NCBI RefSeq assembly: GCF_018614775.1
Contig: NZ_JAGGOF010000019.1
Coordinates: 1-64,000 of the forward strand
Direction: 5' to 3'
Source: Pseudomonas fluorescens
GTDB taxonomy: Bacteria; Pseudomonadota; Gammaproteobacteria; Pseudomonadales; Pseudomonadaceae
Length of the DNA: 64,000 nucleotides
The number at the start of each line of letters is the position of its first letter. Position 1 is the stretch's first letter. Below the pieces are notes generated by a model. It made no database searches. It saw nothing but the letters and a program-made list of their open reading frames with translations, and was not told the DNA's origin. Position numbers and translations under genes: made by a program. Below, one piece after another: positions 6,102 to 26,618 of the stretch.

Positions 6102-6135
6102 CATCTGTGGATAAGCTGTGTACCGTTTTCTGTAA

Positions 6136-6202
6136 TCCGCCGATTTTATGGTTTAAGTCTATGTTTTTAATACATATTTCATAAACACATAAAACCGGCG
6201 GA
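6136..6202. repeat. 15-bp inverted repeat in AT-rich spacer
   Basis: Arms at 6136-6150 and 6188-6202 pair over 15 bp with one mismatch (TCCGCCGATTTTATG against its complement). The AT-rich loop between them is 37 bp. It sits after plsC and after an exact DnaA box at 6106-6114. There is no clear T-tract, so it could be an RNA hairpin at the plsC 3' end or a protein-binding site. Confidence 0.55.
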
Positions 6203-7968: not shown

Positions 7969-11495
<3,527 letters not shown>

Positions 11496-12658: not shown

Positions 12659-14182
12659 TCAAGTGGTCAGTGTACGCAGCAGGTTCTTGTAGTCCTCGCG
12701 GATGTCCGCGTCGGATTCCTTAAGTTCGTTGATCTTGCGGCAGGCGTGCAGCACGGTGGTGTGGTCACGCCCACCAAACACATCGCCGATTTCCGGCAGG
12801 CTGTGGTTGGTCAGTTCCTTGGACAAGGCCATGGCTACCTGACGCGGGCGCGCGACCGAACGCGAACGGCGCTTGGACAACAGGTCGGAAATCTTGATCT
12901 TGTAGTATTCAGCCACCGTGCGCTGAATGTTATCCACAGAGACCAGCTTGTCCTGGAGCGCCAGCAGGTCTTTCAAGGATTCGCGAATCAGCTCGATGGT
13001 GATGTCGCGGCCCATGAAGTGCGAATGAGCGATCACCCGCTTGAGGGCACCTTCGAGCTCTCGCACGTTCGAGCGAATGCGCTGGGCAATGAAGAACGCG
13101 GCGTCATGAGGCAGCTCGACCTTGGCCTGGTCAGCCTTCTTCATCAAAATCGCGACCCGGGTTTCCAGCTCTGGCGGCTCGACAGCCACCGTCAGGCCCC
13201 AGCCGAAACGGGATTTCAGGCGCTCTTCCAGGCCCTCGATTTCTTTCGGATAACGGTCACTGGTGAGAATGACCTGCTGCCCACCTTCAAGCAACGCGTT
13301 GAAGGTGTGGAAAAACTCTTCCTGGGAACGCTCCTTGCGGGCGAAGAACTGGATGTCGTCGATCAGCAAGGCGTCCACCGAACGGTAGAACCGCTTGAAC
13401 TCGTTGATCGCGTTCAATTGCAACGCCTTGACCATGTCGGCCACGAAACGCTCGGAATGCAGGTAAACGACCTTGGCATTCGGGTTCTTCTTCAACAGAT
13501 GGTTGCCCACCGCGTGCATCAAGTGGGTTTTACCCAGGCCCACGCCACCATAAAGGAACAGCGGGTTATAGCCGTGCTTGGGGTTATCCGCCACTTGCCA
13601 GGCGGCGGCCCTGGCCAACTGGTTGGATTTACCTTCGACGAAGTTTTCGAAGGTAAAGGTCCGGTTCAGGTAGCTGGTGTGCTTGAGCGCACCTTCGACC
13701 TGGACGTTGCGCTGTTCGGCACGCACCGGAGCCTGCTGCGAGCTCGCGCCTGCCATGGGATCGAAACTGTCCCGGGACGGCTCTTCGCTGACTTCCGCCG
13801 TTTTCTGCGTACTGCGTTTGCTCGGGGCAGGTGCGGGAGCAGGGGCGGTGTTAACCGGCGCAGCGGCTGCCTGGGCCTGGGAGGCGGCTGCGGCCAGCGG
13901 CGCATTGGGCGCCGCGCGCGGTGCCGAACTGCGTTTGCTGCCTATTAATAAGGACAGCGCAGGCGCCGTGCCATTGCCATGCTCGTCGAGCAGTTCCAGG
14001 ACGCGACCCAGGTACTTTTCGTTGACCCAGTCGAGAACGAAACGGTTGGGCGCATAGACACGCAACTCGTCGCCTTCGGCTTCGACCTGTAGTGGACGGA
14101 TCCAAGTGTTGAATTGTTGGGCAGGCAGCTCATCGCGCAAAAGCTCCACGCACTGCTGCCAAAGTTCCACTGACACGGACAT
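12659..14182 (-). CDS. dnaA: Chromosomal replication initiator protein DnaA
   Basis: This 507-residue AAA+ initiator binds TTATCCACA boxes and melts oriC. Domain I covers roughly residues 1-75. Domain II is an Ala/Pro-rich linker (about 82-160). Domain III has Walker A GGVGLGKT at 212-219 and Walker [10 protein letters not shown]. Domain IV ends with the DNA-binding signature [15 protein letters not shown]. The ATG at 14182 follows the origin region. The coding sequence contains an exact DnaA box at 12930-12938, and the upstream boxes in oriC suggest autoregulation. Confidence 0.98.
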
Positions 14183-14243: not shown

Positions 14244-14590
14244 TTATCCACATGCAGGTTGCCGATCGCCCATGATTATCAATGCCTTAACAAAGAGAAA
14301 GGCGACAGACGGTCAGTGGATAAGCTCTGTGGATAACCGGGTCTGAGGTCATTGCATAAGTGGGGGTTGAACCCGGTGGATAACCGGCCTGTGGATAACT
14401 GCCCGTTCCACACACAGCTTATCCGAGGGCGCAGCACAGCCTGAACACCGTTTTCCACTGTAGTTGTCATCCTCTGTACATGACGGATTATAAGGCCTGG
14501 GGGTGGTTATCCACAGAAAAGTGGCTGCCTAGCTTCTATAAGCTTTACAGAAAAGCTTTAAATAATTCCCTTCTTTATTTCTATATCTAG
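14244..14590. other. oriC: Chromosomal replication origin oriC
   Basis: The dnaA-rpmH interval holds four exact DnaA boxes: TTATCCACA at 14244-14252 and 14507-14515 on plus, and the complement at 14328-14336 and 14390-14398. Two further boxes with one mismatch lie at 14315-14323 and 14375-14383. Right after the last box is an AT-rich stretch (about 14530-14590) suited to unwinding. Pseudomonas origins are known to lie between dnaA and rpmH, so the assignment is strong. Exact boundaries are estimated. The interval 14183-14652 holds no gene. Confidence 0.93.
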
Positions 14591-14652
14591 TGCCGTGTGA
14601 TGAATCCGCCAGGAAGGCTGCGCATCTATTTAAAGGAAACGCTGGTTGGAAA

Positions 14653-17296: not shown

Positions 17297-18667
17297 ATGA
17301 GCGCACCGCGTGAAACCATCGCCGCCGTTGCCACCGCCCAAGGTCGTGGCGGGGTCGGCATCGTCCGTATCTCGGGGCCGTTGGCCAGCACTGCGGCCAA
17401 AGCTATCAGCGGTCGCGAGCTCAAACCGCGGTTTGCTCACTACGGCCCGTTCTTCAGTGACGATCAGCAAGTGCTGGACGAGGGCCTTGCCCTGTATTTC
17501 CCCGGACCGAATTCGTTTACCGGCGAAGACGTGCTGGAACTGCAAGGCCACGGCGGCCCCGTCGTCCTGGATATGCTGCTCAAGCGTTGCCTGGAACTGG
17601 GTTGCCGCCTGGCCCGGCCGGGAGAGTTCAGCGAGCGCGCGTTCCTCAACGACAAACTCGACCTTGCCCAGGCCGAGGCCATTGCCGATCTGATCGAAGC
17701 CAGCTCGGCCCAGGCCGCGCGCAACGCGTTGCGTTCGTTGCAAGGTGCTTTTTCACAGCGTGTGCATAACCTGACCGAGCAATTGATCGGCCTGCGCATC
17801 TACGTCGAGGCGGCGATCGACTTCCCGGAAGAAGAAATCGATTTCCTTGCCGATGGCCATGTGCTGACCATGCTGGACAAGGTTCGCGATGAGTTATCCA
17901 CAGTACTGCGCGAAGCGGGGCAGGGTGCCTTGCTGCGTGACGGTATGACCGTGGTGATTGCTGGACGGCCAAACGCTGGTAAATCCAGCCTCCTGAACGC
18001 CCTGGCCGGTCGTGAGGCCGCCATTGTCACGGAGATCGCCGGCACCACCCGGGATATCTTGCGTGAACATATCCACATCGACGGAATGCCACTGCACGTG
18101 GTGGACACTGCGGGGCTGCGAGACACCGACGACCAGGTTGAGAAAATCGGCGTTGAGCGGGCACTCAAAGCCATCAGCGAAGCGGACAGGGTGTTGCTGG
18201 TCGTGGACGCCACGTCGCCGGAAGCCGACGACCCATTCGCCTTGTGGCCGGAATTCCTCGAAGTCCGACCGGATCCGGCAAAAGTCACCTTGATTCGCAA
18301 CAAGGCCGACCTCACCGGGGAAGCGATTGCCCTTGAAGTCAGTGACGATGGGCATGTGACCATCAGCCTGAGCGCGAAGTCGGCTGGCGAAGGCCTCGAA
18401 TTGTTGCGCGAGCATCTCAAGGCTTGCATGGGCTATGAGCAGACCTCGGAAAGCAGCTTCAGCGCCCGACGCCGGCATTTGGAGGCGTTGCGTCATGCCA
18501 GTGCCGCTCTGGAACATGGCCGTGCTCAACTGACATTGGCCGGTGCCGGCGAACTGCTCGCCGAAGATCTGCGTCAGGCCCAGCATTCGCTGGGTGAAAT
18601 CACCGGGGCGTTCAGTTCCGATGACTTGCTGGGACGGATCTTCTCCAGCTTCTGCATCGGCAAATGA
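17297..18667 (+). CDS. mnmE: tRNA modification GTPase MnmE
   Basis: This 456-residue GTPase works with MnmG to make 5-carboxymethylaminomethyluridine at the wobble base of certain tRNAs. The N-terminal tetrahydrofolate-binding domain is followed by a G domain with G1 GRPNAGKS at 223-230 and DTAGLRDT. The protein ends in the catalytic CIGK. The ATG at 17297 gives the normal length; a TTG at 17279 is less likely. In many pseudomonads mnmE and mnmG are close neighbours, but here an iron-uptake cassette lies between them. Confidence 0.96.
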
Positions 18668-18709: not shown

Positions 18710-21145
18710 TTACCAGTTGTATGAAACCGTGCCGAGCAGCGTACGGTCTTCACCCCAGTAGCAGCGCCCCGCATCGTTGCAACCCGAAACATACTCCTTG
18801 TCGAACAGGTTCTTCGCGTTCAAGTCGACACTCCAATGCGTATCGATCTGGTAGCCGACGGCGGCGTCCACCAGCGTAACATCGCCGGCATCGAGCTTTC
18901 CGTACAGGGTGGGCGCGGTGTAGGCGTATGCGCTGTCGAAATAGCGCACGCCGCCCGCCACGTACAACCCTTTCAAGTTACTTTCCAGAAAGCGATATTT
19001 GGCCCAGAAAGAGGCCTGGTTTCGCGGTACGCCGGTCATCTGGTGGCCTTTTACCAGGGATGTCGGCGCATCCTCGGTCACCCGCGCATCGGTATAAGTG
19101 TAGGAGGCCGTGACATTCAGGGCTGGGGTCAGGTTGCTATTGAGCTCCAGCTCCACGCCCTTGGCACGGCTCTCACCCACCTGACGATAAGTCGACGTGG
19201 TAGCGTCGAAGTAAGTGTCGTCTTTTTTGCGCAAATCGTAGACGGACGCAGTGAAGGCAGTATCCCAGCCAATGGGCTCGTATTTGAGGCCGACTTCATA
19301 CTGGCTGCTGGTGATCGGTTCAAGCGGCGTGCCGGCATTGGAAATCTGCTGCACCGGTACGAAGGCCGTCGAGTAACTGACGTAAGGCGTCATGCCGTTG
19401 TCGAACTGGTACATCAAGCCACCCTGATAGGTGAACTTCTTGTCCTTCGAGCTGATGTTTCCCGCGCTGGCGACCTTGTCGCGGAAATCGCTGTCGACCC
19501 AATCCTGGCGCCCACCAAGTAGAAACAGCCAGCGGTCGTATTTGCTCTGCAACTGGGTATAAACCCCTTTCATCTGTTGTTCGAGCAAGGTGTTTTGCAC
19601 CGCGATCGGCGTCTTCGGATCGCCCAGGTACACCGGGTTGTAGATATCCACAGGCCCGACGACGCCGGCATTCCAATCCTGATTGAACGACGTCCGATCA
19701 TAGCTGGCACCGAACAGCAGGGTATTTTCCAGACCCCCCGTGCTGAACTTACCCTCCAACTGGTTATCCAGGGAGTACACCATCGATTTGTTGAAACGGT
19801 CATAGGCCGTGACGTTCACGCGGCGGCCAAAGCCGCCGTTGTTCAAACTGCCGGGCCAGGTTTCGTGGCGGGTGATGCGTGATTGCAGGTAGCGCGAGTT
19901 CTGCCGGAACTGCCAATCGTCATTGAAGCGGTGGCTGTATTCATAACCGGTGCTCCAGGTTTCCCGCTCGAAGGTGTTCCAGTCCGGATCGCCAAGCATG
20001 GTGTCCTTGGGCAACTGACCGTTCGGGTTGCTGAGCAGCGTACCGGCGGCTGGTAACCCCAACTCCATGTTGGTGTGATCTTTCTGATAGTTGGCCAGCA
20101 GGGTGAGCGTGTTGAAGTCATCGAAATTCAGAGTCAGGGAGGGCGCTATGTAGAGACGGTCATCTGGAACGTGGTCGGTCTGGGTATCCGCGTTACGGCC
20201 CAACATTACGATCCGGCCGAGGATATTGTCGTTCTCGGCGAGCGGTCCGGAGACGTCCACGCCAACCTGACGCCGGTTGTGGGATCCATAGCCCAGCTGG
20301 ACTTCGCCCTGTGGCGTGGCGGTCGGCCGCTTGCTGACAAGATTGACCAGGCCACCCGGCGCATTCTCTCCATAAAGCAGCGAAGACGGCCCGCGGAATA
20401 CCTCGACTCGCTCCAATCCGTATGGCTCCGAGCTGGTGTCGTAGCGGTTGCCCTGGACCCTGAGGCCATCGCGGAGCAAGCCATAGCCATAATCCGTGGC
20501 GTTGAAGCCGCGTATATAGAACAGGTCCCCAGCCAAGCTGTCGCCAGCGGCGAAAGGCGGGGCGAAGATGCCAGGAACATAACCCAGGACATCGGTCAGG
20601 GTCTGTGACTTCTGGTCTTTCATACGCTGGCCGGTAACCACCGACACCGAGCGCGGCGTTTCTGACAACGGCGTGCTGGTTTTCGTACCGATCCGGCTGT
20701 TTTGTGCCCTGTAGCCCACATCGGTGGCGTAATCCAGGTCCATCGGGTTGGCCGCCGTCGCGCTGATACTGGTGGCTGCCAGTTCGATTGTCTGGCCCGT
20801 CGGCAAGGCGTACAGCGTGTAACTGCCGGGCGCCTGCGCCATGGCCTGGAGCCCTGAACCTTGCAACAGCTGGGCGAATCCCTGTTCAACGGAATAGTCA
20901 CCGGTCAACCCGGGGCTCTGCATCTGACCGGTCTGCTGTGGAGAGAACGAGAGGATGACATTGGCTTTCGCGGCGAACTGGTTCAGAACGGTGTCCAGTG
21001 AACCGGCGGCAATAGCGTAGTGCTGCGTGGCGGTATTGGCGAAAGCGCCAGGGGCCACCAGCACGCCGCCTGCGGTGCTGGTTATCAACAGGCCATAAGC
21101 GATGCAGTGCTGAGAAAAACGCTGACGAAACGTGGAGAGGCGCAT
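18710..21145 (-). CDS. TonB-dependent siderophore receptor with STN signalling domain
   Basis: This 811-residue outer-membrane receptor takes up a ferric siderophore using TonB energy. A signal peptide covers about residues 1-35. An STN domain follows (about 40-110, ...GSLDTVLNQFAAKANVILSFSP...), the kind that contacts a FecR-type regulator. Next come the plug, with IRGFNATDYGYGLLRDGL, and a 22-strand barrel ending in aromatic SYNW. A C-terminal cysteine pair (CNDAGRC) resembles ferrichrome-type FhuA/FiuA receptors. The ATG at 21145 is chosen because it starts a signal peptide; the frame upstream overlaps fecR. Together with fecI and fecR it forms a cell-surface signalling system. A hydroxamate substrate is inferred. 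Confidence 0.88.
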   Translation of the reverse strand: MRLSTFRQRFSQHCIAYGLLITSTAGGVLVAPGAFANTATQHYAIAAGSLDTVLNQFAAKANVILSFSPQQTGQMQSPGLTGDYSVEQGFAQLLQGSGLQAMAQAPGSYTLYALPTGQTIELAATSISATAANPMDLDYATDVGYRAQNSRIGTKTSTPLSETPRSVSVVTGQRMKDQKSQTLTDVLGYVPGIFAPPFAAGDSLAGDLFYIRGFNATDYGYGLLRDGLRVQGNRYDTSSEPYGLERVEVFRGPSSLLYGENAPGGLVNLVSKRPTATPQGEVQLGYGSHNRRQVGVDVSGPLAENDNILGRIVMLGRNADTQTDHVPDDRLYIAPSLTLNFDDFNTLTLLANYQKDHTNMELGLPAAGTLLSNPNGQLPKDTMLGDPDWNTFERETWSTGYEYSHRFNDDWQFRQNSRYLQSRITRHETWPGSLNNGGFGRRVNVTAYDRFNKSMVYSLDNQLEGKFSTGGLENTLLFGASYDRTSFNQDWNAGVVGPVDIYNPVYLGDPKTPIAVQNTLLEQQMKGVYTQLQSKYDRWLFLLGGRQDWVDSDFRDKVASAGNISSKDKKFTYQGGLMYQFDNGMTPYVSYSTAFVPVQQISNAGTPLEPITSSQYEVGLKYEPIGWDTAFTASVYDLRKKDDTYFDATTSTYRQVGESRAKGVELELNSNLTPALNVTASYTYTDARVTEDAPTSLVKGHQMTGVPRNQASFWAKYRFLESNLKGLYVAGGVRYFDSAYAYTAPTLYGKLDAGDVTLVDAAVGYQIDTHWSVDLNAKNLFDKEYVSGCNDAGRCYWGEDRTLLGTVSYNW

Positions 21146-21263
21146 GGTGGGTAAGCCCTGGAGGTTGGCAAAGAGCCGCGTTATCGCGATTACCTGAAGG
21201 GCCGTATCAGCACGGAAAAAGATAACCCCCGTCACCCATTTATTTGCGGGTGCCGGGATGTCC

Positions 21264-22211
21264 TCATCCCATTCGCCTGATCGACACCCAGTATTGGCTG
21301 AAATATCGAACCTGAATGGGCAACGACGCCTGCAGGTTAGCCAGCACGGCATCCGTGGAGTCCAGGCGAAACGTACCGGAGACCCGCAAGTGCCGGGCCC
21401 GTTCCTGACATTGCAGGACACCGGGTCGATAACGACCCAGCTCTTCAATGACGTCCCCCAGGGGCGTGTCGAGAACGATCATCTGGCCGTCCACCCACGC
21501 CGCTTGCGCGGAACGATAGGATTGGATGGCCCCCAGGCCCTGACTGTTGAAGTCGGCTTGCTCGCCGGCCTCAAGGGTAGCGGTGTCGTTCGGGCCCCCT
21601 CCCGGCGCAATGCTGACCCGGTCTTGCAGCACGCCCACACGCGTCGAGTCCGACAACCGGCGTACCGTGAATCGCGTCCCCAGCGCCTGAATACGGCCAT
21701 CCTCGGTCTCGACAAAAAAAGGCCGTGTGTCTTTGAGTTTGCCGGTCTGCACCAGGATTTCCCCGCTGAACAACCGAATCAGCCGCTGGTGAGTGTCGAA
21801 CGAAATATCTATGACTGTTTCGGTGTTGAGATGAATACGGCTACCGTCCGCCAGGTCAAGGGCACGACGCTGCCCCACTGCGGTTTTGTAATCGGCCCAG
21901 ACCGAGGCCAGCGTCCTGTGGTCTCGCAGGTTCCACCCGACAGAACCCGTGGCGGCCAACAACAACAGCAGCTTGAGTACCTGGCGCCGGTGTTGTCCGG
22001 TATTCAATGCACGCCGTGAAACGTCCTGGGGCAACGCACCGAGATGGCGCTGCAGTTGCTCGATCTGGTGCCACGCATCTTGGTGGGCTGGATCGCTGTC
22101 GAGCCAGCCCTGCCAAGCCAGGCGTTCGGTGTGCGAAGGGGGACTGTCCTGAAACTGCACGTACCAACTGGCGGCCGCTTCGAAGATCTTGCGATCCGGC
22201 AGGGCAGGCAT
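21264..22211 (-). CDS. FecR-type anti-sigma/transmembrane regulator
   Basis: This 315-residue regulator has an N-terminal cytoplasmic domain with the FecR-type start (ASWYVQFQDSPPS...RLAWQGWLDSDPAHQDAWHQIE) that binds the sigma factor. A single membrane helix lies near residues 78-93. The periplasmic FecR domain holds DLADGSRIHLNTETVI and would sense the STN domain of the receptor. The ATG at 22211 overlaps the fecI stop by one base (TGATG). The gene lies between the sigma factor and the receptor, the usual order. Confidence 0.9.
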   Translation of the reverse strand: MPALPDRKIFEAAASWYVQFQDSPPSHTERLAWQGWLDSDPAHQDAWHQIEQLQRHLGALPQDVSRRALNTGQHRRQVLKLLLLLAATGSVGWNLRDHRTLASVWADYKTAVGQRRALDLADGSRIHLNTETVIDISFDTHQRLIRLFSGEILVQTGKLKDTRPFFVETEDGRIQALGTRFTVRRLSDSTRVGVLQDRVSIAPGGGPNDTATLEAGEQADFNSQGLGAIQSYRSAQAAWVDGQMIVLDTPLGDVIEELGRYRPGVLQCQERARHLRVSGTFRLDSTDAVLANLQASLPIQVRYFSQYWVSIRRMG

Positions 22212-22717
22212 CAGCGTTCGGCCATGATCAATGCGCACTCGGTGAGTGCGCGCACCATGTGCTTTTTCACGGTGGTCAGGGAAACCTTCAATTGCCCGGC
22301 AATCTGTTGATAAGTCAGCCCGCCGATTTGCGACAGCATGAAGATGCGCCGGGTACGGGTTCCCAACCCCGCCAAGGCTTTATCCACAGAGACCAGCGTC
22401 TCGATGATCAATGCCTTGTCTTCTTCACTGATCGCGGTGGGCTCGGGTCGCGCTGAAAGAGACTCCAGATAGGCGGCTTCAATAGCCTGCCTTCTATAAC
22501 GATCAATGACCAGGCCTCTTGCGACCGTGGCGAGGTAATCCCGTGGCTCGCGAATCTGCATGGCATTGCGTGCCCCAAGAATCCGCACAAACGTGTCATG
22601 GGCAACGTCCGCAGCATCGCAAGCGTTCTGCAACTTGCCCCTGAGCCACCCGTACAGCCACGAATGGTGTTGCTCATAAATTCGCTCGATCGCAGCAGTA
22701 TGAGAAGACAAAGGCAT
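22211..22717 (-). CDS. ECF sigma factor, FecI type
   Basis: This 168-residue extracytoplasmic-function sigma factor of the iron-starvation group would direct transcription of the adjacent TonB receptor gene when its siderophore is present. Region 2 holds the AADVAHDTFVRIL stretch. Region 4 is a C-terminal helix-turn-helix (GLTYQQIAGQLKVSLTTVKKHMVRAL). The start ATG at 22717 is about 12 bp from a Fur-like box, which fits repression by Fur when iron is plentiful. An exact DnaA box lies inside the gene at 22380-22388. Confidence 0.92.
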   Translation of the reverse strand: MPLSSHTAAIERIYEQHHSWLYGWLRGKLQNACDAADVAHDTFVRILGARNAMQIREPRDYLATVARGLVIDRYRRQAIEAAYLESLSARPEPTAISEEDKALIIETLVSVDKALAGLGTRTRRIFMLSQIGGLTYQQIAGQLKVSLTTVKKHMVRALTECALIMAER

Positions 22718-22753: not shown

Positions 22754-22857
22754 TTCTGTTACGTCTTCTCACAATAGCCCCGGGGCTCCCATCAACAAGC
22801 TTTTCAGTTTTAGCTTGACGCAACGTGCTTGAGGGGCGCGCAAGCACGATTAAGCCC

Positions 22858-23120
22858 TGTGAATAACTGCCCCTGAGCCAGGTTGATAAGCCCCCTCAAA
22901 AACTGAAGATAACCGTCTCTGTGGATAACACGCCTATTCATCCACAGGCTTACACCGCTTATCCAAGCCCCTCATTGCCACATGACCACAGGGTTTTGAA
23001 ACGCTGTACATAGCGTAAATGAAGGCCTGTATGGTTTTATCCACAGATAATCAGCTCAGTAAGAATAAACATAAAAACAAAGGTTTTATAAATTTCTTTC
23101 TTTTTTATTTCTTTAACCGC
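22858..23120. other. Second DnaA-box cluster with AT-rich tract
   Basis: The 548-bp spacer upstream of mnmG has no gene. It holds two exact DnaA boxes (22920-22928, 23038-23046), two with one mismatch (22858-22866, 22938-22946) and a weaker one (22959-22967). A strongly AT-rich tract follows at about 23055-23120. This repeats the layout of oriC, where the last box also precedes the AT-rich part. Second origin-like regions near gidA have been discussed for pseudomonads; whether this one initiates replication is unknown. A TATACT -10-like element at 23180-23185 may serve mnmG. Confidence 0.7.
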
Positions 23121-23265
23121 GAGTTCTCCACAGCTGGTTAAATTTTGTGCAAAGGGTTCTTTAGGAAGGGCGAAGTCCCTATACTTGCCGACCTGGCTCA
23201 AAACGCCCGATGGCCAGAGTCAAAACCTATTTCCGAATTACCTGAATTAAGCAGGCACGAGGTGC

Positions 23266-25161
23266 GTGGTGGATTTCCCTTCCCGTTTTGAAGTGATCGT
23301 CATCGGCGGCGGTCATGCCGGTACCGAGGCAGCACTTGCATCAGCACGCATGGAAGCCAAAACCCTGTTGCTGACGCATAACGTGGAAACCCTCGGCGCC
23401 ATGAGCTGCAACCCCGCCATTGGTGGGATCGGTAAAAGCCACCTGGTCAAGGAAATCGACGCCCTTGGCGGCGCCATGGCGATTGCCACGGATAAAGGCG
23501 GTATTCAGTTTCGCGTGTTGAACAGCCGCAAAGGCCCGGCCGTACGCGCCACTCGCGCCCAGGCCGACCGGGTCCTGTACAAGGCCGCTGTCCGCGAAAT
23601 CCTGGAGAACCAGCCGAACCTGTGGATATTTCAACAGGCTGCCGATGACCTGATCGTCGAGCAGGACCAGGTCCGCGGCGTGATTACGCAAATGGGCCTG
23701 CGGTTCTTCGCCGATTCGGTTGTGTTGGCCACCGGGACCTTCCTCGGCGGACTTATCCACATCGGTATGCAGAACTATTCCGGTGGCCGCGCTGGCGATC
23801 CGCCTTCCATTGCGTTGGCCCAGCGCCTGCGTGAGTTACCACTGCGTGTTGGCCGCCTGAAAACCGGTACCCCGCCGCGTATCGATGGCCGGTCGGTGGA
23901 TTTTTCGGTCATGACCGAGCAACCGGGCGACACGCCGATCCCGGTGATGTCGTTCATGGGGTCGAAAGAGCAGCATCCGCAGCAGGTGAGCTGCTGGATC
24001 ACCCACACCAATGCCCGTACTCACGAAATCATTGCTGCCAACCTGGATCGTTCGCCGATGTATTCCGGCGTGATCGAGGGCATCGGCCCGCGTTATTGCC
24101 CGTCGATCGAAGACAAGATTCATCGCTTTGCCGACAAGGAAAGCCATCAGGTCTTCATCGAGCCCGAAGGCCTGACCACGCACGAGCTGTACCCGAACGG
24201 AATCTCCACATCCCTGCCGTTCGATGTGCAACTGCAGATCGTCCAATCGATTCGCGGGATGGAAAACGCCCACATCGTTCGCCCCGGTTACGCCATCGAG
24301 TACGATTACTTCGACCCGCGTGACCTGAAGTACAGCCTGGAAACCAAAGTCATTGGCGGCCTGTTCTTTGCCGGTCAGATCAACGGCACCACCGGTTATG
24401 AAGAGGCTGGTGCCCAAGGTTTGTTGGCCGGTGCAAATGCTGCGCTGCGTGCCCAAGGCAAGGACAGCTGGTGTCCACGTCGCGATGAGGCGTACATCGG
24501 CGTGCTGGTGGACGACCTGATTACCCTGGGTACCCAGGAACCGTACCGGATGTTCACGTCCCGCGCCGAATATCGGCTGATCCTGCGTGAAGACAACGCC
24601 GACCTGCGCCTGACCGAGAAAGGCCGTGAGCTGGGGCTGGTGGATGACGTGCGTTGGGCCGCGTTCTGCAAGAAACGCGAGAGTATCGAACTGGAAGAGC
24701 AGCGCCTGAAAAGCACCTGGGTTCGTCCCGGTACGGAACAGGGCGATGCCATTGCCGCGAAATTCGGTACGCCGCTGACCCACGAATACAATTTGCTCAA
24801 CCTGTTGAGCCGTCCGGAGATCGACTATGCCGGGCTGGTGGAAGTGACCGGCCAAGGCGCAGAAGATCCACAGGTGGCCGAACAGGTCGAGATCAAGACC
24901 AAATACGCCGGGTACATCGATCGCCAGCAGGATGAAATCGCCCGTCTGCGCGCCAGCGAAGACACGAAACTGCCTGTGGATATCGACTACACCGGGATTT
25001 CCGGGTTGTCGAAGGAAATCCAGAGCAAGCTTGGCGCTACGCGTCCGGAGACCCTGGGCCAGGCCTCGCGCATCCCCGGCGTGACGCCTGCGGCCATTTC
25101 CCTGTTGATGATTCATTTGAAAAAACGCGGCGCGGGCCGCCAGTTGGAGCAAAGCGCTTGA
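23266..25161 (+). CDS. mnmG: tRNA uridine-5-carboxymethylaminomethyl modification enzyme MnmG
   Basis: This 631-residue FAD-dependent partner of MnmE modifies wobble uridine 34 of tRNAs. The N-terminal dinucleotide-binding motif is [18 protein letters not shown] (about residues 11-28). The conserved [26 protein letters not shown] and [11 protein letters not shown] follow. Length is standard. GTG at 23266 is the usual Pseudomonas start ([10 protein letters not shown]); a GTG one codon later is equally possible. It contains an exact DnaA box at 23753-23761, and its stop overlaps the rsmG start. Confidence 0.97.
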
Positions 25162-25802
25162 GTTCGATGGTCACCTCGCAACACGCCGAAGAGTTATCCA
25201 CAGGTGCCCGGCAACTTGGCGTCAGCCTGACCGAAGCCCAGCACGCGCAGTTGCTGGGTTACCTGGCGTTGCTGATCAAGTGGAACAAGGCCTACAACCT
25301 GACCGCGGTGCGCGATCCGGATGAAATGGTCTCGCGCCATCTGCTCGACAGCCTCAGCGTCATGTCCTTCATCGAAGACGGTCGCTGGCTGGATGTGGGC
25401 AGCGGTGGCGGCATGCCGGGGATCCCGCTGTCGATCCTGTTTCCCGGCTCGCAAGTGACCTGCCTGGACAGCAACGGCAAGAAGACCCGCTTCCTGACCC
25501 AGGTCAAACTCGAACTCAAACTGGACAACCTGCAAGTTATCCACAGTCGCGTCGAAGCGTTCCAGCCAGCCGAGCCTTTCAACGGGATTATTTCCCGGGC
25601 GTTCAGCAGCATGGAGAATTTCAGCAACTGGACTCGCCACTTGGGCGATGCCAACACGCGCTGGCTGGCAATGAAGGGCGTTCATCCGGCCGATGAGCTG
25701 GTAGCATTGCCAGCAGACTTCCACCTCGATAGCGAACACGCCTTGGCCGTACCTGGTTGCCAAGGCCAACGCCATCTGCTGATACTGCGCCGCACGGCAT
25801 GA
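25158..25802 (+). CDS. rsmG: 16S rRNA (guanine-527-N7)-methyltransferase RsmG
   Basis: This 214-residue SAM-dependent enzyme methylates G527 of 16S rRNA; its loss gives low-level streptomycin resistance in other bacteria. The SAM site [17 protein letters not shown] and the following [11 protein letters not shown] are visible. The likely start is TTG at 25158, overlapping the mnmG stop; an ATG at 25167 would shorten it by three residues. Two exact DnaA boxes lie inside (25194-25202, 25537-25545). Confidence 0.95.
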
Positions 25803-25820: not shown

Positions 25821-26618
25821 ATGGCTAAGGTATTCGCGATAGCGAACCAGAAGGGTGGTGTGGGCAAGACCACCACCTGCATCAACCTCGCAGCATCCCT
25901 GGTCGCGACCAAGCGCCGGGTGCTGTTGATCGATCTCGATCCACAGGGCAACGCCACCATGGGTAGCGGTGTGGATAAACATGGCCTGGAAAACTCCATC
26001 TACGACGTGCTGATCGGCGAATGCGATCTCGGCCAGGCCATGCACTTTTCCGAACACGGCGGTTACCAACTGCTGCCGGCCAACCGTGACCTGACCGCGG
26101 CCGAAGTGGTCCTGCTGGAAATGCAGATGAAAGAGAGCCGTCTGCGCAGCGCCCTGGCGCCGATCCGGGAGAATTACGACTACATCCTGATCGACTGCCC
26201 GCCGTCGCTGTCGATGCTGACGCTCAATGCCCTGGTGGCCGCCGATGGCGTGATCATCCCGATGCAGTGCGAGTATTTCGCCCTGGAAGGGTTGAGCGAC
26301 CTTGTGGATAACATCAAGCGCATCGCCGAGCTGCTGAACCCGGAGCTGAAGGTCGAAGGCTTGCTGCGGACCATGTACGACCCGCGTCTTAGCCTGATGA
26401 ACGACGTCTCGGCCCAGCTCAAGGAACACTTCGGCGAGCAGCTCTACGACACCGTCATTCCGCGTAACATCCGCCTGGCCGAAGCGCCGAGCTACGGCAT
26501 GCCAGCATTGGCCTACGACAAACAATCCCGTGGTGCGCTGGCCTACCTGGCCCTGGCAGGCGAGATGGTTCGCCGTCAGCGTCGTAACCCCCGCACCGCT
26601 GCTGCCCAGCCAACTTAA
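25821..26618 (+). CDS. parA: Chromosome partitioning ATPase ParA (Soj)
   Basis: This 265-residue deviant-Walker ATPase moves ParB-parS complexes to segregate replicated origins. The motif KGGVGKTT is at 11-18, with the signature lysine, followed by DLDPQGNATMGSG. The ATG at 25821 gives the conserved MAKVFAIANQKGG. It lies 19 bp after rsmG and 10 bp before parB. Two exact DnaA boxes (25970-25978, 26303-26311) fall within the coding sequence. Confidence 0.97.
   Translation: MAKVFAIANQKGGVGKTTTCINLAASLVATKRRVLLIDLDPQGNATMGSGVDKHGLENSIYDVLIGECDLGQAMHFSEHGGYQLLPANRDLTAAEVVLLEMQMKESRLRSALAPIRENYDYILIDCPPSLSMLTLNALVAADGVIIPMQCEYFALEGLSDLVDNIKRIAELLNPELKVEGLLRTMYDPRLSLMNDVSAQLKEHFGEQLYDTVIPRNIRLAEAPSYGMPALAYDKQSRGALAYLALAGEMVRRQRRNPRTAAAQPT

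Follow-up and report, generated by a model that had tools for sequence, protein, structure and literature searches.

A conserved oriC-like element in front of mnmG in Pseudomonas, a possible second origin of replication

The 64-kb stretch of Pseudomonas fluorescens DNA analysed here (the window) carries, in front of mnmG, three DnaA boxes laid out as in the oriC beside dnaA. The site shares the box register of oriC, resembles it beyond the boxes, has a very unstable AT tract next to its inward-pointing box and is conserved across the genus. Its layout, instability and conservation favour an element whose function is to assemble DnaA in the manner of oriC. On balance we lean towards reading it as a conserved second oriC-type element, which would serve as a subordinate, conditional or back-up origin; a site that titrates or controls DnaA comes next in our order of preference. 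Because the oriC layout is duplicated and kept in nearly all Pseudomonas examined, the element may be a reserve or subordinate start point of replication. If it works as an origin, a whole bacterial group keeps two replication starts, which would bear on why bacteria normally use one origin and on how origins move between lineages.

The features of the two sites are as follows (window coordinates).

12659-14182, - strand: dnaA
14328-14515, + strand: oriC box triple in the register 0/62/179, between dnaA and a gene that we take to be rpmH, with an unstable tract from about 14537
22858-22866, - strand: DnaA box 1 of the mnmG-side element (R4-like position), TTATTCACA, one mismatch
22920-22928, - strand: DnaA box 2 (R2-like position), TTATCCACA, exact
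22938-22946, + strand: one-mismatch DnaA box TCATCCACA, within a conserved stretch of the 61-sequence alignment
23037-23045, + strand: DnaA box 3 (R1-like position), TTATCCACA, exact, pointing into the AT tract
23046-23118, no strand: AT-rich putative DNA-unwinding element with the least stable 50 bp of the window
23124-23132, + strand: fifth box-like site TTCTCCACA, beyond the AT tract and just outside 22858-23120
23139-23194, + strand: stretch between the AT tract and mnmG, conserved in the alignment, a possible mnmG promoter
23266-25161, + strand: mnmG (gidA), Pfam GIDA, E 4e-173

Boxes were scored against TTATCCACA, and counts of perfect boxes were also run with TTATNCACA. Like an origin, the element is an intergenic cluster of DnaA boxes; it is flanked by the starts of a fec-type sigma gene (22717, - strand) and of mnmG (23266). 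The window also holds yidC, mnmE, rsmG, parA and parB, with oriC beside the start of dnaA. An earlier note had described two exact and two one-mismatch boxes beside an AT-rich tract, in the same order as in oriC 8.4 kb away. The boxes are as it described (22920 and 23037 exact, 22858 and 22938 one base off), and the likeness to oriC is stronger than it claimed. The oriC boxes at 14328(-), 14390(-) and 14507(+) and the mnmG-side boxes at 22858(-), 22920(-) and 23037(+) both give 0/62/179 bp, equal to the base, and the two triples stand 8,530 bp apart. This pattern occurs at only two places in the window, oriC and the front of mnmG, and in none of 100 shuffles. Since perfect boxes are common in the region (24 copies of TTATNCACA in the window against 0.61 expected), a few nearby boxes would by themselves mean little; the case for the element rests on the shared geometry and its conservation.

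The likeness extends beyond the boxes. When 14300-14599 and 22830-23129 are compared without gaps, 143 of 300 bases match (30, 29, 24, 33 and 27 per 60), and the flanks give 18 and 14 matches per 60. We also compared the consensus of 61 mnmG-side elements, taken from the window's own genome and 60 of the 98 other listed genomes of the genus, with that of 51 oriCs, a set that excludes nine loci with no dnaA match and locus L091. The two agree at 51.9% of positions in register, and 200 other offsets have a mean of 25.4% (sd 3.0%, maximum 32.6%). Among the columns at least 90% conserved in both sets, 59 hold the same base and 3 a different one. The motif CTGTACA stands in the same register in both consensus sequences and is found somewhere in 51/61 mnmG-side elements and 38/51 oriCs, while AAGGCCTG is present in only 20/61 and 5/51, respectively; we know of no binder for either motif. 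Concerted evolution of the two copies was considered and rejected. Identity between the sites is 0.474 within a genome and 0.468 with other genomes (median rank 17 of 51), an excess too weak for us to claim gene conversion.

The AT tract sets in at about 23050. Ranked by nearest-neighbour energy, no 50-bp segment of the 64 kb is less stable than the one starting at 23060 (rank 0 of 63,951). By computed instability, then, the weakest tract of the window adjoins the inward-pointing box 3, as expected of an origin. When separate places in the window are ranked, the oriC tract at 14537 comes third, behind one at 6143; a perfect DnaA box adjoins this second least stable place (6106-6192). Among the loci fetched from the 61 genomes, the least stable 50 bp belong to the mnmG-side element in 56, to oriC in 4 and to another place in 1, in a survey of loci of 7.6-20 kb, some lacking oriC, that scored 50 oriC tracts, left the window's own oriC unscored and cut the window's locus one base off.

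The triple is kept throughout the genus. In front of mnmG it is found with at most 3 mismatches of 27 in 61/61 genomes, while no other place in these 600 bp has fewer than 10, and with at most 4 in 22/22 named Pseudomonas-like loci (L217-L237 and L239; mostly Pseudomonas, with one Stutzerimonas and one Paucimonas). A search for the 0/62/179 pattern with at most 2 mismatches matched 396 of 398 genus genomes. By our tally by eye from the results table, 363 of them have exactly two matches, 33 have one, 2 have none and 0 have more. The reversed pattern matched 0/398, as did a control in which 2 bp were added to the last spacing; given these controls and the conservation of the triple, we reject the explanation that a few boxes have come together by chance. 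In 51 genomes the distance between the two sites is 4.3-12.9 kb (4.3-5.2 kb in 34 and 8.2-9.4 kb in 13). The region had been called origin-like from its boxes and AT tract, and this description is now well supported by oriC geometry, oriC-like sequence, a strongly unstable tract and genus-wide conservation.

How far does the twin layout reach? An order-wide search with at most 3 mismatches matched 8/145 genomes. All 6 genomes of the window's own family are among them (two matches in 4, one in 2), but only 2/139 genomes of other families, with one match each; these two belong to the same other family, and their matches are more than 200 kb from mnmG in the given coordinates. The exact twin layout therefore looks like a trait of the family and not of the order. 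One genome of the family (G116) has the layout on the dnaA side only, with 9 mismatches on the mnmG side. Among 20 order-level loci, the mnmG side is within 5 mismatches of 0/62/179 in 4 (L197, which belongs to the window's family, L207, L210 and L215), has 7 mismatches in 3 and 8-13 in the remaining 13; the dnaA side of L210 and L215 has 11. The dnaA side is in range in 15 of the 20 (L214 judged from yidC), and 7 of these 15 (L198, L199, L203, L205, L210, L213 and L214) have at least two copies of TTATNCACA at both sites, the density elsewhere being 0.105 per kb.

The two sites differ in the strength of their boxes. At oriC, TTATCCACA stands at box 1 in 51/51 sequences and at box 3 in 45/51. 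On the mnmG side (n = 61), box 1 is TTATTCACA in 28, TTTTCCACA in 19 and perfect TTATCCACA in only 4; box 2 is TTATCCACA in 41; box 3 is CTATCCACA in 37 and TTATCCACA in 20. The scarcity of perfect copies of boxes 1 and 3 is a counterpoint to a second oriC, as it could mean decay or loss of function. The outer boxes, however, are one base off in a few recurrent forms, which to us is more suggestive of tuning than of decay. If the element were a disused relic of an ancestral origin on the mnmG side, this would account for boxes weaker than those of oriC, and the enterobacterial oriC does occupy the same place. We nevertheless regard a relic as very improbable: almost every genome examined retains the spacing and the AT tract, and identity within the set is higher at mnmG (67%) than at oriC (62%). 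In addition, where the exact register has been lost in L091 (outer boxes 182 bp apart) and L229 (shifted to 63/180), the loss is on the dnaA side, and the mnmG side has kept it.

If the element is a second oriC, DnaA would bind its three boxes and assemble there an orisome shaped like that of oriC, which could melt the AT tract and lead to helicase loading. Because the outer boxes are usually one base off consensus, the element would be expected to fill later or less fully than oriC, and it would also take up DnaA within the box-rich origin domain. We thus picture an orisome scaffold with an unwinding tract, probably subordinate to the dnaA-side oriC. A second initiation site, which the earlier note had offered as one possibility, fits the data as a predicted role. 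The fixed register makes such a role testable through changes in spacing and in box strength.

DnaA bound at the element might instead regulate transcription of mnmG and the genes behind it. The element precedes the mnmG start by about 220-410 bp, and next to the conserved stretch between the AT tract and the gene is the fifth box-like site, at 23124. The three main boxes, however, are separated from that stretch by more than 90 bp on its upstream side, and a purely regulatory role would leave the identity of layout with oriC unexplained; we consider this explanation unlikely. A sigma-70 consensus scan for an mnmG promoter found none on the + strand, and a search for RNA families found none in 12-27 kb of the window.

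The surroundings of the element vary. In the window, genes for a TonB receptor, a fecR-like and a fecI-like protein (18710-22717) stand between mnmE and the element. Reversed copies of fec-like genes are found in 11/61 loci, and the element is kept there despite its separation from mnmE. Near the origin, the coding strands show a small GC skew of mixed sign at fourfold sites, and the reversed fec-like genes do likewise; the skew favours neither site as the active one. To the left of dnaA there are two parS-like palindromes, at 10429 and 11059, one exact and one with one mismatch.

A further explanation is that the site titrates or controls DnaA. Copied soon after oriC fires, it would bind DnaA and help prevent early re-initiation, and it would never start chromosomal replication itself. 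This is possible, although we find it distinctly less probable than a second oriC; as a rival or as a second role it is supported because the site sits in an origin-centred excess of perfect boxes. All 24 copies of TTATNCACA in the window are between 1 and 36.3 kb. Genome-wide positions were obtained for the window's own genome and for two others, G010 and G015. The window's genome has 106 copies of TTATCCACA against 11 of the reversed motif. In G010, 36 of 122 copies are within 100 kb of the contig start, where the origin lies, and the positions then jump from 2.10 to 4.23 Mb; G015 has a like gap, from 2.06 to 4.11 Mb. When 400 kb at the G010 origin are compared with 400 kb sampled near the terminus, the counts of TTATCCACA are 37 and 0, and its origin count is the highest of all 9-mers with at most one terminus copy. 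Much of the excess is inside open reading frames, where 24 copies stand at the G010 origin (1.8 expected) and 0 at its terminus (1.0 expected); for the reversed motif the figures are 2 (0.8 expected) and 1 (0.4 expected). In 11 origin-region genes, pooled over up to 61 genomes, there are 387 boxes against 14 expected from synonymous shuffling, a count drawn from related genomes and so not of independent boxes, though two of these genes, dnaN and parB, have none. The following perfect boxes are inside genes of the window.

12930-12938, + strand: inside dnaA, part of the origin-proximal excess
17894-17902, + strand: inside mnmE
23753-23761, + strand: inside mnmG
25194-25202, + strand: inside rsmG, with another at 25537
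25970-25978, - strand: inside parA, with another at 26303

An origin-proximal excess of boxes in E. coli and Salmonella is interpreted as titration in the text available from PMC12371093. In that text the motifs used for the enteric bacteria are degenerate, whereas the Pseudomonas bias is strong, concerns the perfect 9-mer and leaves none in the sampled terminus of one genome. The matches listed in the open-access literature, as excerpted, include no study of the distribution of perfect boxes in Pseudomonas. Neither the fixed register of 62/117 bp nor a tract prone to melting is needed for titration, and of the mnmG-side boxes two out of three are usually imperfect. The DnaA reservoir suggested in the earlier note is thus supported in part, since perfect boxes are enriched throughout the origin region, but the fixed spacing and the tract go beyond what a plain reservoir requires. 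With an origin-centred bias of this strength, a large part of it within genes, Pseudomonas would lend itself clearly to tests of initiator titration.

Groups of perfect boxes also occur away from the two sites. Seven, whose internal spacings are nearly alike in the two genomes, form a conserved distant cluster, at L102:1371-11525 (61-72 kb from the G010 start) and at C41:44514-54436 of the window's genome. Five lie within about 680 bp at C112:117-795 of the window's genome, and ten are spread over 5.6 kb of G010 (5,968,464-5,974,105), a candidate datA/DARS-like site.

For P. aeruginosa, two candidate origins have already been published. They are reportedly the subject of Yee and Smith 1990, Smith et al. 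1991 and Jiang et al. 2006, and the second element of this 1990-2006 literature is said to be at gidA/mnmG. The likeness to the present case lies in a second origin-like element on a pseudomonad chromosome. The available text of PMC4403523 refers to two autonomously replicating elements isolated from this species. Other excerpts place its oriC next to dnaA (PMC3642087) and fit its replication to start events at one oriC (PMC7485682), both of which weigh against a second oriC; for P. putida, 12 DnaA boxes with function left open are given in the dnaA promoter region (PMC8203912, in the part available). The accessible portions of the literature on pseudomonad origins yielded no statement of the shared 0/62/179 register. 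The gammaBOriS excerpt gives TCTATCCACAGAA as the Pseudomonas oriC motif, with its own warning that consensus motifs need not occur exactly (PMC7174414). We find this motif in 36/61 mnmG-side elements and 1/51 dnaA-side oriCs, so gammaBOriS apparently learned the mnmG-side element; this one motif, as quoted there, hints that the mnmG site was in many cases what it took for the Pseudomonas origin.

The mnmG-side element resembles datA and DARS of E. coli in being a DnaA-box site outside oriC. Those sites influence DnaA, combining DnaA boxes with IHF or Fis sites and altering the nucleotide state of DnaA, and are not known to have an adjacent unwinding element. The mnmG-side element is set apart from them by its unstable AT tract, a putative melting tract, and by its oriC geometry. 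Both datA and DARS are named as sites outside oriC in the portion of PMC12371093 available to us.

A close comparison is with oriC of E. coli K-12, which is also located in front of mnmG. In the same orientation its boxes stand at -356(-), -282(-) and -176(+), i.e., 0/74/180; the mnmG-side element has its exact layout, 0/62/179, in common with the oriC of its own chromosome. We take the E. coli boxes to be R4(-), R2(-) and R1(+). The likeness consists in the place in front of mnmG, the box order (-,-,+), an R1-like box pointing to the mnmG side, and outer boxes 180 bp apart against 179 in Pseudomonas. The middle box differs, at 74 against 62, by about one helical turn, and we know of no such twin beside dnaA in E. 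coli. The 0/74/180 layout is matched with 1 mismatch by Salinivibrio (L251) and with 2 by an uncultured Vibrio (L281). In loci of Shewanella, Colwellia, Thalassotalea and Aeromonas two boxes are 73 bp apart, but the full E. coli triple is a poor fit (7-11 mismatches). In 43 of 59 loci (L238-L296), including Burkholderia, Paraburkholderia, Massilia and Janthinobacterium, TTATNCACA is absent within 700 bp of mnmG. A profile built from the dnaA-side oriCs of Pseudomonas matches E. coli oriC at E 3e-4; E. coli oriC is not among the 32 matches listed for the mnmG-side profile, and profiles from other families, used to date the duplication, gave mixed scores. It is tempting to speculate, though we are rather doubtful of it, that the Pseudomonadaceae have two oriCs, in most cases separated by 4.3-9.3 kb, that follow a single orisome ruler; both would be able to fire, and box strength would decide which of them is used. 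They would then be a living intermediate between lineages that start on the dnaA side and those that, like E. coli, start in front of mnmG. Within the second-oriC reading, to which we incline on balance, the mnmG-side site would be the positional and architectural counterpart of the enterobacterial oriC, related in sequence to its own dnaA-side oriC.
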